Shown here piece after piece: positions 42,087-49,419 of a DNA stretch of 64,000 nt (the first letter of the stretch is position 1; each line of letters opens with the position of its first letter). The stretch covers positions 1 through 64,000 of the forward strand of contig NZ_LDQA01000025.1 of the NCBI RefSeq assembly GCF_001475935.1, written 5' to 3'. The notes under the pieces are model-generated. The model was given only the letters and a program-made list of their open reading frames with translations, did not search any database and was not told the origin of the DNA. This stretch comes from Aureimonas ureilytica. Its GTDB lineage: Bacteria > Pseudomonadota > Alphaproteobacteria > Rhizobiales > Rhizobiaceae. Both the position numbers and the translations under genes were made by a program.

Positions 42087-43289
42087 TCAGGCGCGCGGTT
42101 CGGCTCGTTGAAGCAGGCCGCGATAGATTTCCTCGTTGTCGCAAAGCCCCGCCAAGCGGCCGAGGTCGTCCACCAAAAGGATAGGGTGGTTGGTCTGGCG
42201 CTTCAGGGCGATCGCGGCACGCAGCTTCAGATCGACCGGCGCGACGATGACGTCGCAGGCGTGAGGGACGCGCCCTTCTTCGCCATCGGCATGACCGAGC
42301 GTTCCGCCATGCCCTTCGATCCGAACACAGACAGGCCGGTCGGCGCTGTCCACTTCGAGTCTCACACCGCCGGCATCGTCCAGGAGCAGCATATCGCCCT
42401 CGCGTTTCAAGGAGTGAAGCGGGCGCATTACGGCGGAGCCGCGCAGCACGTTGAGCGGGTTCATATGGCGCACGAATTCCGCGACATAAGGCGTCGCGGG
42501 CCTCAACAGGATATCGTCCGGCCGGCCCCATTGAACGATATGGCCGTCCTGCATGATGGCGATGCGGTTGCCGAGTTTGAGCGCCTCGTCCAGATCATGG
42601 CTGACGAAGAGGATCGTCTTGCGGATGGATTTTTGCAGCTCCAGCAATTCGTCCTGAAGCTTGGTGCGAATGAGCGGATCGAGCGCCGAAAAGGGCTCGT
42701 CCATCAGGAGAATATCCGCATTCGTTGCGAAGGCTCGCGCCAGGCCGACGCGCTGCTGCATCCCGCCCGAAAGCTCGTGAGCGTATTTGTCGGCCCATTT
42801 CGTCAGGCCGACCATAGCGAGTTTCTCGTCCACGATCCGGTTGCGCTCGGCAACGGGCAGGCCCTGCAGCTCCAGACCGAGCCCCGCGTTCTGCCGGACG
42901 GTGCGCCAGGGCAGGAGGGCGAATTGCTGAAAGACCATCGACACGGTGTGCGTGCGGATATCGCGCAAGGTCGTCTCGTCGCAGGCGGCGACATCGATCG
43001 CGCGCTCGCGATGTCGTACCAGAACCTCGCCGCGCGCCACGTCGTTGAGCCGGTTGACCGCGCGCAGGATCGTGGATTTGCCCGAGCCGGACAGACCCAT
43101 CAGGACGCAGATCTCGCCTCGATCGACAGTAAAGCTGACACCAGCCGCACCCAGGACGGCGTTCGTTGCCTGCAGGATTTCGTCTCGTGTCTTGCCTTGA
43201 TCGACCAGACGGAGCGCTTCTGCGCGCCGCTCGCCGAAGACGATGTCGAGGTTACGGAATTCGATCGCGGGAAGGGTGGTCTCGGCCAT
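42087..43289 (-). CDS. choV: Choline ABC transporter ATPase
   Basis: A 400-residue ATPase of the ProV/ChoV type. Walker A GLSGSGKST is at 65-73, the signature LSGGMQQR at 173-180, and LLMDEPFSALDPL is the Walker B. The start, with IVFGERRAEALRLVDQGKTRDEI, is typical of ProV-like proteins. The C-terminal 110 residues look like CBS-type regulatory domains, which sense osmolarity or ionic strength in OpuA and ProV. It starts 3 bp after choW. Confidence 0.92.
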   Translation of the reverse strand: MAETTLPAIEFRNLDIVFGERRAEALRLVDQGKTRDEILQATNAVLGAAGVSFTVDRGEICVLMGLSGSGKSTILRAVNRLNDVARGEVLVRHRERAIDVAACDETTLRDIRTHTVSMVFQQFALLPWRTVRQNAGLGLELQGLPVAERNRIVDEKLAMVGLTKWADKYAHELSGGMQQRVGLARAFATNADILLMDEPFSALDPLIRTKLQDELLELQKSIRKTILFVSHDLDEALKLGNRIAIMQDGHIVQWGRPDDILLRPATPYVAEFVRHMNPLNVLRGSAVMRPLHSLKREGDMLLLDDAGGVRLEVDSADRPVCVRIEGHGGTLGHADGEEGRVPHACDVIVAPVDLKLRAAIALKRQTNHPILLVDDLGRLAGLCDNEEIYRGLLQRAEPRA

Positions 43290-43292
43290 GGG

Positions 43293-44147
43293 TCAGCGTC
43301 CTTTTGCGCGACGCGGTTCGGGCGCCTTGCAGATTCGATCGAGAAGGATGGCGAGGATGACGATGGCGAGCCCGGCCTCGAAGCCCATGCCGATATTGAC
43401 GGTGTTGAGGGCGCGCACGACGGGCTTGCCCAGTCCATCAGCACCGACGAGAGCTGCGATCACGACCATCGATAGGCTCAACATGATGCATTGCGTGACG
43501 CCCGCCATGATGGTCGGTAAAGCGTGTGGCAGTTCGACCTTATAGAGAAGTTGGCGCTTGGTGGCGCCGAATGCGCTGCCAGCCTCATGCAGGGCGCTCG
43601 GTACGGCGGATATGCCGAGATAGGTGAGTCGGATGGGAGCCGGAAGGGCGAAGATGACCGTCGAGATCAAGCCCGGCACAGCGCCGAGACCGAAAAGCAC
43701 GAGCGTGGGGATGAGATAGACGAAGGTCGGGATCGTTTGCATCAGATCGAGAAAAGGCCGAAGGGCCGTGTAGACCCAAGGGCGATGGGCTGCGACGACG
43801 CCGAGCGGAACGCCGATCAGCACGCAAACGAGGGTCGCGCAGAAGACGAGGGAAAGGGTCTGGATCGTCTCCGTCCAATAGCCGAGATTGACGATCAGAA
43901 GCAGGGAGAAAACGGCAAAAAGCGCCAGCCCGATCGAGCGGTGAAGCAGCCATGTGCCTGCGGCGACGAGCGCGATGAAGACGAGCGGAGGGATCAAGGA
44001 CAGGCCTGCGGTCAGGCCGTCGATCAGCGCGCCTAGAACGAGCGAGATCGTGTCGAAAAAGCCCTGTGCGTGGCTTGTCAGGCCATTCACGAGGTCGCGA
44101 AGCCAGACCCCGAGGGGTATCTTATGATTGGTCAGCCAATCGAGCAT
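43293..44147 (-). CDS. choW: Choline ABC transporter permease
   Basis: A 284-residue inner-membrane permease of the ProW/OpuAB type with about six to seven hydrophobic segments and the binding-protein-dependent transport motif (PTFVYLIPTLVLFGLGAVPGLIS, then EAGSAFGATKRQLLYKVELPHALPTIMAGV, the EAA loop). It should form the translocation path for choline with ChoV. It follows choX by 188 bp containing a terminator-like hairpin. Confidence 0.92.
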   Translation of the reverse strand: MLDWLTNHKIPLGVWLRDLVNGLTSHAQGFFDTISLVLGALIDGLTAGLSLIPPLVFIALVAAGTWLLHRSIGLALFAVFSLLLIVNLGYWTETIQTLSLVFCATLVCVLIGVPLGVVAAHRPWVYTALRPFLDLMQTIPTFVYLIPTLVLFGLGAVPGLISTVIFALPAPIRLTYLGISAVPSALHEAGSAFGATKRQLLYKVELPHALPTIMAGVTQCIMLSLSMVVIAALVGADGLGKPVVRALNTVNIGMGFEAGLAIVILAILLDRICKAPEPRRAKGR

Positions 44148-44335: not shown

Positions 44336-45286
44336 TCATTTCGAAAGAGCGGCGGACACGGCAGCCTCTGCTGGCTTTCCGTCGAATGTCGTCACACCGT
44401 CGAGCCAAGGCTTCCAGGTCTCGGGATGGGCTGCGAGCCATTGTTTCGCGGCGGCCTCTGGCGCCTTTCCGTCATTCAGGATCGCGCCCATGATCTCGTT
44501 TTCCATCGGCAGCGAGAAGACGATATTCGAAAGCAGTTTGCCCACATTCGGACACTCGGTCGTATATCCCTTGCGAACTAGGGTATAGATCGTCGCGCCA
44601 CCATAGTTGGGGCCGAATACATCGTCGCCGCCCGAAAGGTAGGAGATCTTGAAGTTCGAGTTCATGGGATGGGGCTCCCAACCCAGGAAGACCACGGGCT
44701 TCTCACCGCGCGTCTGACGCGCGACTTGGGACAGCATGCCTTGTTCGGAGGACTCCACCAGTTCGAACTTGCCGAGGCCGAACTTGTTGTCGGCGATCAT
44801 CTTCAAGATTAGCCGGTTGCCGTCATTGCCAGGTTCGATGCCGTAGATCTTGCCACCGAGCTGGTCGTAGAACTTTCCGATATCGGCGAAGGATTTCAGG
44901 CCTTCATTGTAGAGATAGGTCGGTACGGCCAGCGTATATTTGGCGCCTTCCAGATTGACGCGCACCGTTTCGATAGACCCGTCCGTCTTGTAGGGCGCGA
45001 GATCGGCCTCCATGGTCGGCATCCAGTTGCCGAGAAAAACGTCGATATCCTTGTTCTTCATAGAGGCGAAGGTGACGGGCAAGGCCAGCACATCCGTCTT
45101 GGGCTTGTAACCCAAGGCCGATAGGAGAGTGGAAACCGAAGCCGTCGTCGAGGTGATGTCTGTCCATCCCACATCGGCGAAGCGAACTGCTTGGCAGCTC
45201 GCCGGATCTGCAGCGTGTGCCGGGGGTGCCGAAGCGGCCAGTGCTAAAACGAGGCCTGTCAGGGCGAGGTGGCGGGACATCATCAT
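44336..45286 (-). CDS. choX: Choline-binding periplasmic protein
   Basis: A 316-residue binding protein with a signal peptide ending PAHAAD. The mature sequence follows the Sinorhizobium ChoX pattern closely, compared from memory: VRFADVGWTDITSTTA, ALPVTFASMKNKDIDVFLGNWMPTME, KIYGIEPGNDGNRL, VESSEQGMLSQVAR and VFLGWEPHPMNSNF, then GGDDVFGPNYGGATIYT. The Trp/Tyr residues in those stretches build the cage for the trimethylammonium group. The first of three ATGs at 45286 has AGGAG eight bases upstream. It is divergent from the bet genes and likely BetI-controlled. Confidence 0.93.
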   Translation of the reverse strand: MMMSRHLALTGLVLALAASAPPAHAADPASCQAVRFADVGWTDITSTTASVSTLLSALGYKPKTDVLALPVTFASMKNKDIDVFLGNWMPTMEADLAPYKTDGSIETVRVNLEGAKYTLAVPTYLYNEGLKSFADIGKFYDQLGGKIYGIEPGNDGNRLILKMIADNKFGLGKFELVESSEQGMLSQVARQTRGEKPVVFLGWEPHPMNSNFKISYLSGGDDVFGPNYGGATIYTLVRKGYTTECPNVGKLLSNIVFSLPMENEIMGAILNDGKAPEAAAKQWLAAHPETWKPWLDGVTTFDGKPAEAAVSAALSK

Positions 45287-45416: not shown

Positions 45417-45436
45417 TATTGAACAATCGTTCAATA
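45417..45436. promoter_or_regulatory. BetI operator, perfect palindrome
   Basis: TATTGAACAATCGTTCAATA is a perfect 8-4-8 inverted repeat (arms TATTGAAC and GTTCAATA). It shares the ATTGAAC half-site with the E. coli and Vibrio BetI operators as I recall them. It lies between the divergent choline import and oxidation genes. Confidence 0.72.
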
Positions 45437-45569: not shown

Positions 45570-45587
45570 ATTGAATGACCGATCAGT
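45570..45587 (+). promoter_or_regulatory. Second, imperfect BetI-like site
   Basis: ATTGAATGACCGATCAGT matches most positions of the E. coli-type BetI site (ATTGAA...CAATCAAT form). It ends 35 bp before the betI-betB start codon, where a repressor would block transcription. Confidence 0.45.
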
Positions 45588-45622
45588 TTCTGCTATCGCC
45601 TCTCTACTCCCGGAGGTGAACG

Positions 45623-47734
45623 ATGGCTCGCATGGACAGTGTTTCGCGATTCGGCGCAGAGGATCAGCGTCGTCGTCAACTCATCGAGGCGACGATCGAC
45701 GCGCTCGCCGATGTCGGATTTGCCGCCTCCAGCCTGTCGGAAATCGCGGGCCGGGCCGGGGTCGCGCCCTCGCTCGTGTCGCACTATTTCGGTGACAAGG
45801 AAGGGCTGCTGGAATCCACCCTGCGCCATCTGGCCAACCGTGTTTCCAACAGCGCGCGGCTGCGGCTGGCGCGCGCGGACGGGCCGCGCGAACGCATTCA
45901 GGCCGTTATCGACGCCAATCTCGCTCCTGAAGAATTCGACGCGCGCACATGTTCGGTCTGGCTCGCCTTCTGGGGGCAGGTGCTGCACTCGGCACGGCTG
46001 AAGCGGGTTCAGCGTGTCTACCAAAAGCGCATGCTGTCCAATCTGCGGCATGAGCTCAAATTTCTCTGCAACGCGGACGACGCCAACAGGATCTCGATTG
46101 CCATAGCGGCCGTGATCGACGGGCTCTGGCTTCGCTCTACCTTATCGGACGTGGCGGAGACGGATAGTTTCTCAGCCCGCGCCATCGCGACGAGCTTTGC
46201 CGATCAGCAGATCGGCGCGGCGCGGCCCCGTGATTCGGGTGAGATGGTGCGTGCGCCCCGGCGCGCCGACGGCGTGCGCGTTCTGACGAGCCATGTCGGC
46301 GGCGACTATCTGCCGCTAGCGGCCGACGCCGAAACCTTTCCGACGCTCAATCCGGCGACGGGCGAGGTTCTGGCTGAAATCGCCATCGCCGGTGAAGCCG
46401 AGGTCGATCACGCCGTGGCCGTCGCCCGCGAGGCGCAACGGGCCTGGGGCGCGATGACGGGCGCCGAGCGGGGCCGCATTCTTCAGCGCGTGGCCATGCG
46501 CCTGCGCGAACGCAACGGCGAACTCGCCATGCTGGAGACGCGCGACACCGGCAAGCCGATTCAAGAAACACAGGCGGTCGATGTTCTTTCGGGCGCCGAC
46601 TGTATCGAGTATTTCGCGGGGCTTGCCGCAAGTCTGGCGGGCGAGCATGTCGATCTCGGCCCCTCGGCGTTCGGTTATACGAGGCGCGAGCCGCTGGGCG
46701 TCGTGGCCGGAATCGGGGCGTGGAATTATCCGATCCAGATCGCTTGCTGGAAGGCCGCCCCCGCGCTCGCGGCCGGAAACAGCTTCATTTTCAAACCGGC
46801 CGAACTCACGCCACTGACCGCGCTGAAGCTTGCGGAAGTGATGACCGAGTGCGGCGTTCCCGCCGGGGTGTTCAACGTGGTGCAGGGGGATGGGCGCACT
46901 GGCCGTCTTCTCTCCCGCCATTCTGGTATCGCCAAGATTTCGCTGACCGGCGAAGTCGGTACCGGCAAGAAGGTGATGGCGGACGCGAGTTCCACCCTCA
47001 AGCAGGTGACGCTGGAGCTCGGCGGCAAGTCGCCGCTCATCGTATTCCCCGACGCCGATTTGGACGACGCGGTCGGCGGCGCGCTTCTCGCCAACTTCTA
47101 TTCCGCTGGCGAGGTCTGCTCCAATGGCACCCGCGTCTTCGTGCACGAGGACGTGCGTGAGGCATTCCTCGCGAGGCTCGCCGAGCGCACGCGCGCTATG
47201 GTGGTGGGTGATCCCTGCGACCCCGCGACCCATGTCGGCGCGCTGATCTCGCAAGCGCATATGAGCAAAGTGCTGTCCTATATCGAGGAGGGGCAACGCG
47301 AGGGTGCGCGGCTCCTCGTAGGCGGCAACCGAGAGACGACGGGGGCGCTGGCCAGGGGCTGTTTCGTGCAGCCGACCATTTTCGACGCCTGCACCGACGA
47401 TATGCGCATCGTACGCGAGGAAATCTTTGGTCCGGTCATGACCGTCCTGTCCTTTCGAGAAGAGGATGAGGTCATCTCCCGCGCCAACGACACTCCGTTC
47501 GGTCTGGCGGCAGGCGTCTTCACGCGCGATCTGGGACGCGCGCACCGCGTCGTGGCGAAGCTTCAAGCCGGCACGACCTGGATCAACACCTATAACATCA
47601 CGCCGATCGAACTGCCCTTCGGCGGCGTCAAGCAGTCGGGTCTCGGGCGCGAGAACGGGCGAGCAGCGCTTCTCGCGCATACGGAAGTGAAGAGCGTCTA
47701 CGTCAATCTCGGTTCTGTCGACGCACCCTATTGA
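45623..47734 (+). CDS. betI-betB: BetI-BetB fusion: choline-sensing TetR repressor joined to betaine aldehyde dehydrogenase
   Basis: One 703-codon frame with no stop. Residues 1 to about 200 are a complete BetI/TetR repressor: DNA-binding helices with [25 protein letters not shown] (38-62), then the ligand domain ending [12 protein letters not shown] and FADQQIGAA. Residues about 208-703 are a complete NAD-dependent aldehyde dehydrogenase that oxidises betaine aldehyde to glycine betaine: N368 (GAWNYP), E466 (LELGGKSP) and C499 (GEVCSNGTR). The joint is a short polar stretch around residues 200-215. Normally betI and betB are separate. M208 (ATG at 46244) could be an internal BetB start giving about 496 residues. 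A TGA in another frame at 46231 means a single missing base could explain the fusion. Ribosome site CCGGAGG; betA follows after 14 bp. Confidence 0.85.
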
Positions 47735-47748
47735 TCGGAGGACAAGCC

Positions 47749-49419
47749 ATGTCTGTCGAAAGCTTCGATTATGTGATCGTGGGCGCCGGCTCGGCGGGCT
47801 GCGTTCTGGCCAACCGCCTGAGCGAGGATGGGAAGAGCACCGTTCTCCTGCTGGAGTTCGGCGGCTCGGATCGCTCGGTTCTGATCCAGATGCCGAGCGC
47901 GCTGTCGATCCCCATGAACATGAAGAAATACAATTGGGGCTACGAGTCCGAGCCCGAACCCTATCTCGGCGGACGGCGTATAAATTGCCCGCGCGGCAAG
48001 GTGCTAGGCGGCTCCTCCTCGATCAATGGCATGGTCTATGTGCGCGGTGCGCCGGCCGATTTCGATCGGTGGGAACGCGAAGGTGCGTCGGGCTGGAGCT
48101 ACCCTGACGTTCTGCCCTATTTCCGCAAGGCCGAGCACCGGCGCGCTGGGGGCGATCCCTATCGCGGCGATGAGGGCGCGCTTCACACGACCTATGGCAC
48201 GCTGGAAAATCCGCTCTATCAGGCCTTTGTCGCAGCTGCCGGAGAGGCCGGCCATGCACTGAATCAGGACATCAACGGCGCGACCCAGGAAGGTTTCGGC
48301 CGGATGGACATGACCGTCCACGAAGGGCGGCGCTGGTCCACCGCCAACGCCTATCTAAAGCCTGCGCTGGGCCGGCCGAACCTGAAGGTCGAAACCCACG
48401 CGCTGGTCGAGCGCGTGCTTTTCGACGGGCGCGTCGCTTCGGGCGTTGCGTACCGCGTGGGAGCCTCGGAACGGCGTGCGATGGCACGGCGCGAGGTGAT
48501 TCTCTCGGCTGGCTCGATCAATTCACCCAAGCTCCTGAAACTCTCCGGCGTTGGACCAGCCGGCGAACTGCGCGATCTCGGGATCGATGTCGTGGCCGAT
48601 CGGCCGGGCGTCGGCGAGAATCTTCAGGACCATCTGGAATTCTACTTCCAGGTGGCTTGCCGCGAACCGATCACCCTGTTCTCGGCTATGTCGCCCTTCG
48701 CCAAGGGGACGATCGGGGCGCGATGGCTGTTCACCAAAAAAGGGCTCGGCGCCACGAATCATTTCGAGAGCTGCGGCTTCATCCGATCCTCACCCAATGT
48801 CGAGCACGCCGATATCCAGTACCACTTCCTGCCGCTGGCCGTGACCTATGACGGGAGGGGGCTGGCATCCGAGCACGGCTTCCAGGCCCATGTCGGGCCG
48901 ATGCGCTCCAAGTCTCGCGGCCATGTCCGACTGGCCTCACGCGATCCGGCCGAGGCGCCGCGCATCCTCTTCAACTATATGAGCCATCCCGATGACTGGG
49001 CGGAAATGCGCGCCTGCGTGCGACTGACTCGTCAGATTTTCGCGCAGCCAGCCTTCGATCGCTATCGCGGTCGCGAGATCCAGCCGGGCGAGGGCGTGCA
49101 GAGCGACGCGGAAATCGACGCCTTCATCACCCAGCATGTCGAAAGCGCCTATCACCCCTCCTGCACCTGCGCGATGGGAGCGCCGGACGCGACGATGAGT
49201 GTGGTCGATCCCCAGACGCGCGTCATCGGTGTCGACCGACTGCGCGTGGTGGATTCGTCGATCATGCCATCCATCACCACCGGCAATCTCAACGCACCGA
49301 CCATCATGATCGGAGAGAAGGCGGCCGATATCATCCGCGATCGCGCGCCTCTGCCCCGTGCGGATGTGCCCTACGAGCGCGTGGCCTTCCTGCCCGCGCC
49401 CGCGCAAGGCGTCATGTAG
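47749..49419 (+). CDS. betA: Choline dehydrogenase
   Basis: A 556-residue flavoenzyme of the GMC family, usually membrane-associated, that oxidises choline to betaine aldehyde. The FAD loop [16 protein letters not shown] lies at the N-terminus. GMC signatures are [21 protein letters not shown] and [19 protein letters not shown], and the catalytic His is in [14 protein letters not shown], with the C-terminal Asn in [18 protein letters not shown]. Ribosome site GGAGGACAAG. Its last 8 bases overlap the tail of the convergent etfB-like gene. Confidence 0.94.

Follow-up and report, generated by a model that had tools for sequence, protein, structure and literature searches.

From a 64,000-nucleotide stretch of the Aureimonas ureilytica genome (henceforth the window), we describe a gene in which a BetI-type repressor and a betaine aldehyde dehydrogenase (BetB), the enzyme that completes the conversion of choline into a compound protective under salt stress, share one reading frame. 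This is a real, conserved fusion gene and not a sequencing error, and its product probably works in a manner akin to PutA, as a single-chain repressor-enzyme that keeps its own divergent cho/bet promoters shut until choline releases it. The frame is unbroken over 703 codons, as the initial annotation had claimed, and has the following parts.

45623..47734, plus strand: betI-betB fusion gene, 703 aa (own frame; same frame in 20 of 21 Aureimonas genomes, its own counted)
45612..45618, plus strand: Shine-Dalgarno-like GGAGGTG ahead of the start codon at 45623 (from the sequence)
45623..46222, plus strand: BetI half, residues 1-200 (Pfam, NCBIfam scores, nine modelled helices between 2 and 199)
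45680-45817, plus strand: TetR_N, residues 20-65 (Pfam)
45884-46213, plus strand: TetR_C_6 of BetI type, residues 88-197 (Pfam)
46223..46288, plus strand: linker, approximately residues 201-222, variable and rich in Ala, Pro and Arg across the family (alignment, composition, pLDDT, dN/dS)
46289..47731, plus strand: BetB half, residues 223-703 (PRK13252, TIGR01804; Pfam Aldedh at 235-692)
47117-47119, plus strand: Cys499 codon, within the BetB half

The division of the chain made from the letters, with BetI in the first 200 residues and a BetB with its catalytic residues in the remainder, agrees with Pfam, with equivalog models and with an alignment of 57 diverse fusions. The BetI half narrowly passed the NCBIfam equivalog TIGR03384 (203.3 bits, cut-off 201.3) and also passed PRK00767 (193.3, cut-off 118), while the BetB half reached 775.9 with PRK13252 (cut-off 593) and, again narrowly, 673.6 with the equivalog TIGR01804 (cut-off 668.6). 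TetR_N, TetR_C_6 and Aldedh were present in all 57 aligned fusions by Pfam scan, and N368, K391, E465, C499 and E600 were invariant among them; the catalytic roles of these residues we take to be those of the aldehyde dehydrogenase family. An AlphaFold2 model built from the 57 rows (mean pLDDT 83.6, pTM 0.66) placed nine helices between residues 2 and 199, followed by the linker and then the dehydrogenase, and supports two folded halves joined by a flexible tether. Confidence was low in the linker (pLDDT below 50 at 206-212) and at 342-354, 651-669 and 672-689 of the dehydrogenase half. Given the low-confidence linker and the pTM of 0.66, the model fixes no contact between the halves. Each of the solved relatives listed covers a single half; these were the 60 best of 309 with the whole protein as query, among them 6wsa, 2wme and 3r31 for BetB, and the 60 best of 84 with the BetI half.

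The source genome is an assembly of 5.0 Mb in 183 contigs, and the initial annotation had cautioned that a one-base error near 46210-46230 might have joined two normal genes. Both features on which this caution was based, a TGA in another frame (46231) and an ATG (46244), are indeed there. An error of sequencing or assembly can nevertheless be practically dismissed, because relatives carry the same joined frame. It was found unbroken in 20 of 21 Aureimonas genomes (its own counted, 72–100% identical over about the whole query length), that is, as a stop-free whole-length frame in 19 of the 20 others at 72–88% identity, and it recurred in 79 of 80 named loci from other assemblies (see below). 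The pattern named as grounds for doubt, relatives that all keep the two genes separate, is thus contradicted by a fused frame in Aureimonas and in many further genera. The one exception in the genus, G019, had only a BetB at 58% identity. On the tree this separate BetB (L039) clusters with BetBs of other classes, and the fused gene looks as if it had been swapped by transfer.

To see how widely the gene occurs, named genomes were scanned with two patterns from the BetI half and the best 80 of 159 relatives were kept. One fused frame was present in 79 of these 80 loci, 77 recognised by the first rule and two (L071 and L123) by profile; the sole non-fused locus, L121 from Aquibaculum, had separate genes. 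The fusion occurs in Ancylobacter, Kaistia, Azorhizobium, Faunimonas, Methylobrevis, Rhodomicrobium, Acidisoma and Gluconacetobacter, in Bosea sp. 117, and in metagenome-assembled genomes (MAGs) deposited under the labels Bauldia, Pseudoxanthobacter, Caulobacterales, Steroidobacteraceae and Gammaproteobacteria. When successively wider taxa were surveyed with the Aureimonas alignment as query, stop-free whole-length matches came from at least eight of 394 genomes in the family (those listed all Aureimonas), at least 15 of 397 in the order (seven families), at least three of 385 in the class and at least three of 398 in the phylum, where inspection of the frames added two. That betI and betB are separate genes in known bet operons consequently holds only within limits, since many alphaproteobacterial genera carry the fusion. 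The component families are known, but our searches of the open-licence PMC literature yielded no report of a BetI-BetB fusion. On a plasmid of Komagataeibacter saccharivorans the fusion is a 2031-base CDS that RefSeq names only betaine-aldehyde dehydrogenase, although its translation contains BetI sequence, and labelling of this kind may explain why the fusion has been overlooked. The start annotated for this CDS (L206:4031-6061) falls in TetR_N, some ten residues into the match, and the repressor half may have been trimmed by the choice of start.

Some loci departed from the common form. Long open frames in G022 and G046 were rejected as extra fusions, their N-terminal parts not being BetI-like and the BetI profile giving no hit in them (L036 and L031). 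In L046 and L047 (G216 and G145, of the same family) a stand-alone BetB clusters with the fused BetBs of Aureimonas and the fetched locus has no betI, a possible case of loss of the BetI half. L150 (G715), a fusion of 680 aa, scores low as a BetB (525) and sits on a very long branch of the BetB tree, for which an altered substrate, decay or a faulty assembly are options.

In the window, putative genes for the uptake and oxidation of choline lie on either side of the fusion.

47749..49419, plus strand: betA-like choline dehydrogenase, 556 aa (named by position and eye)
44336..45286, minus strand: choX-like binding protein (named by eye)
43293..44147, minus strand: choW-like permease (named by eye)
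42087..43289, minus strand: choV-like ATPase (named by eye)

A BetA homologue was found in 79 of the best 80 named loci (all but L065). Homologues of ChoX turned up in 59 of the 80, of ChoW in 56 and of ChoV in 61, some loci ending at contig edges. The transporter genes of the named Hyphomicrobiales loci are mostly divergent and upstream of the fusion. Together with the BetA neighbour, this arrangement places the fusion between choline uptake and choline oxidation. At L099:3817-5850 the ChoW-like permease and the ChoX-like binding protein match a single open frame, as they do in the further MAG loci L103, L104, L107, L112, L116, L118, L122, L124 and L126, and these may represent a second gene fusion.

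The region between the divergent genes contains two palindromes of BetI type, scored with the consensus ATTGAACGATCGTTCAAT that we derived from Aureimonas upstream palindromes.

45418..45435, no strand: BetI-type palindrome ATTGAACAATCGTTCAAT, 17/18 against the consensus used, best match in the 64 kb
45570..45587, no strand: second BetI-type palindrome ATTGAATGACCGATCAGT, 14/18, second best match in the 64 kb

A box of at least 13/18 was present upstream of 85 of 94 fusions (two of the 96 were left out for having fewer than 200 bases upstream), compared with 1.3% of first-order Markov shuffles and none of 94 coding controls. Outside Aureimonas, from which the consensus came, 65 of 74 upstream regions had one. 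Two or more sites at 12/18 or better were found for 72 of the 94; some of the second sites are chance matches, since 9.5% of shuffles also reach 12. Similar boxes precede 36 of 42 separate betI genes of relatives. When the whole 5.0 Mb genome was searched with a degenerate box, three exact sites emerged, the two of the window and C105:74443. This third site was rejected as an operator and taken as chance, because the ORFs in the surrounding 6 kb are, by eye, not choline genes. C162:110766, with one mismatch, was also set aside; it falls inside an ORF that by eye resembles a secretion protein. The same genome has a second ORF, of 223 aa (G000:C137:3515-3847), with a BetI-type C-terminal domain that scored 48 bits, above the Pfam cut-off, compared with 96 for the fusion; a third ORF fell under the cut-off. 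The next matches listed to the fusion were BADH-like dehydrogenases, 42–45% identical.

Since DNA binding is here deduced from sequence, the BetI half might be a passenger that tethers or stabilises BetB after the loss of regulation. We consider this very improbable: besides the boxes upstream of most fusions, G32, L51, H54, F56 and K59 of the BetI half are invariant among the 57 aligned fusions, and dN/dS in the helix-turn-helix was 0–0.15 in ten Aureimonas pairs (with dS above 1 in some). In the same ten pairs dN/dS was 0.02–0.14 in the ligand domain, save 0.6 for L026/L028, and, again with dS above 1 in some, 0.04–0.19 in BetB and 0–1.0 in the linker. As judged from these values, both halves are under selection and the linker is far more changeable between species.

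The evolutionary history of the fusion was examined on trees of both halves, from which near-duplicate Aureimonas rows were left out (160 of 167 distinct rows used for BetB, 132 of 138 for BetI). On the BetI tree, with midpoint rooting, all 90 fused rows fall in one clade of 100, in which the only separate rows are the 10 from families f27 and f50, and the fusion label requires two changes. On the BetB tree, 88 of 89 fused rows fall in a clade of 104 (support 94, not starred) together with 16 separate rows, and the label requires seven changes, all forced by starred branches, against a shuffled mean of 52.6. The separate pairs of f27 and f50 branch within the fused clade on both trees. A four-base overlap of betI and betB, with a Shine-Dalgarno-like stretch ahead of betB, is seen in all five f27 rows and one of the five f50 rows; the four remaining f50 rows have the two genes apart. 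The overlap in these sister families indicates that the fusion and the coupled pair are close evolutionary neighbours.

Overlapping or adjacent genes might also have fused several times independently, such joins being easy to form and of no advantage of their own. The overlaps just described and the seven forced changes on the BetB tree are what one would expect from such a history. We regard it as rather unlikely all the same, given the two changes and the single clade on the BetI tree; moreover, the seven changes can be read as one gain and five losses plus L203, and four of them depend on single rows (L165, L172, L195 and L203), two of which are flagged long branches. L203 was rejected as an independent fusion: the BetB tree puts it outside the fused clade, on a branch flagged as long, but the BetI tree puts it inside, and it was taken as misplaced for that reason. 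A single origin of the fusion is therefore likely on these quick trees, and it stays short of proof in view of the kind of trees, the flagged long branches and the choice of rows by similarity.

Another question is whether the frame gives one product or two, the fused chain and in addition a free BetB started within the linker. An ATG, GTG or TTG is present in the linker of 76 of 96 distinct fusions, an ATG in 33, and a linker start codon follows a Shine-Dalgarno-like stretch in 13, most clearly in Acidisoma; by the identical rule, 72 of the 96 have such a stretch ahead of the N-terminal start. The four-base overlap with a Shine-Dalgarno-like stretch in six of the 10 sister rows also favours two products. 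Internal initiation may therefore yield free BetB in some species. Against this, in 20 of the 96 fusions the stretch from the end of BetI to the BetB core lacks any in-frame ATG, GTG or TTG, which excludes internal initiation for those. By the rule used, no Shine-Dalgarno sequence precedes the junction ATG of the window. This ATG is not common to the genus, in which L010 and L018 have none of the three codons between the end of BetI and the PATG motif. Taken over the family, we think a second product unlikely. Between the last BetI helix and PATG lie 53–56 codons in the 17 Aureimonas loci, of 20, that the measurement covered, and the linkers of the 96 fusions are 20% Ala and 18% Pro.

Compared with a separate BetI, the N-terminal half of the fusion likewise matches TIGR03384 and PRK00767, lies beside betB and betA sequence and has a palindrome upstream as separate betI genes do, but its C-terminus runs on into the dehydrogenase. 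The box also differs from that of a characterised BetI, our Aureimonas-derived consensus standing against ATTGACGCGTCAAT, the footprinted box of Ruegeria BetI1 as given in PMC12442346. The C-terminal half belongs to the same equivalog as separate BetBs and keeps the catalytic residues, whereas its N-terminus is joined to the repressor and the first BetB strand motif is gone in about 31 of the 96 fusions (34 by a simple rule, before L067, L082 and L085, which read NQIGG, were restored by eye). The f27 and f50 pairs share with the fusion a betI immediately ahead of betB and differ from it in encoding two proteins.

To our knowledge, few repressors are a physical part of the enzyme that they control. 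The DNA-binding fold of PutA is unlike the TetR-type domain of the fusion, which has its own ligand domain, and no proline dehydrogenase domain was among the four Pfam families listed for the 57 fusions scanned. Trifunctional PutA, according to PMC9132996, combines a proline catabolic enzyme with a DNA-binding repressor of its own genes, and the fusion would likewise have an aldehyde dehydrogenase and an own-gene repressor on one chain. The fusion would thus be PutA-like in logic and unrelated to PutA by domains.

A repressor carried by the enzyme that it controls, as first suggested for this frame, is the best reading of a single BetI-BetB frame with catalytic residues and BetI-type palindromes upstream. 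The initial annotation further suggested that choline sensing would be physically coupled to BetB flux and that the oligomeric symmetries of the two halves could be compatible. The product would be one protein of an estimated 75 kDa or so, in which a short flexible linker ties an N-terminal BetI, a TetR-type repressor responsive to choline, to a betaine aldehyde dehydrogenase at the C-terminus. When choline is absent, the BetI part would bind the two palindromes that separate the fusion-betA operon from the divergent cho transporter genes, repressing both transcription units. By analogy with characterised BetIs, choline would free the BetI part from DNA, and uptake, BetA and the fused BetB would then increase together. 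A single chain fixes the ratio of repressor to enzyme at 1:1, so that the enzyme pool would double as a large repressor pool. Such an operon should remain on only at high choline and be turned off abruptly once the choline has been consumed. More tentatively, and with considerable doubt, the fusion could be a metabolic switch, in which the state of the BetB oligomer (with betaine aldehyde or NAD bound) alters DNA binding by BetI, or the oligomer bridges the boxes 152 bp apart. If this were true, enzyme flux would directly set transcription in the manner of PutA, though through a TetR domain.

As a repressor-enzyme, the fusion is a TetR-family candidate for a repressor within its own enzyme, found in several alphaproteobacterial families and with one origin on the BetI tree. 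Its relatives provide a natural series, from genes apart to genes overlapping, to fusions with a possible old start, and to fusions that have no start codon in the linker and have lost the first strand. This series lets one ask how a fixed ratio of repressor to enzyme and their physical coupling shape induction and shut-off, and it also bears on whether an enzyme oligomer can bridge operators.
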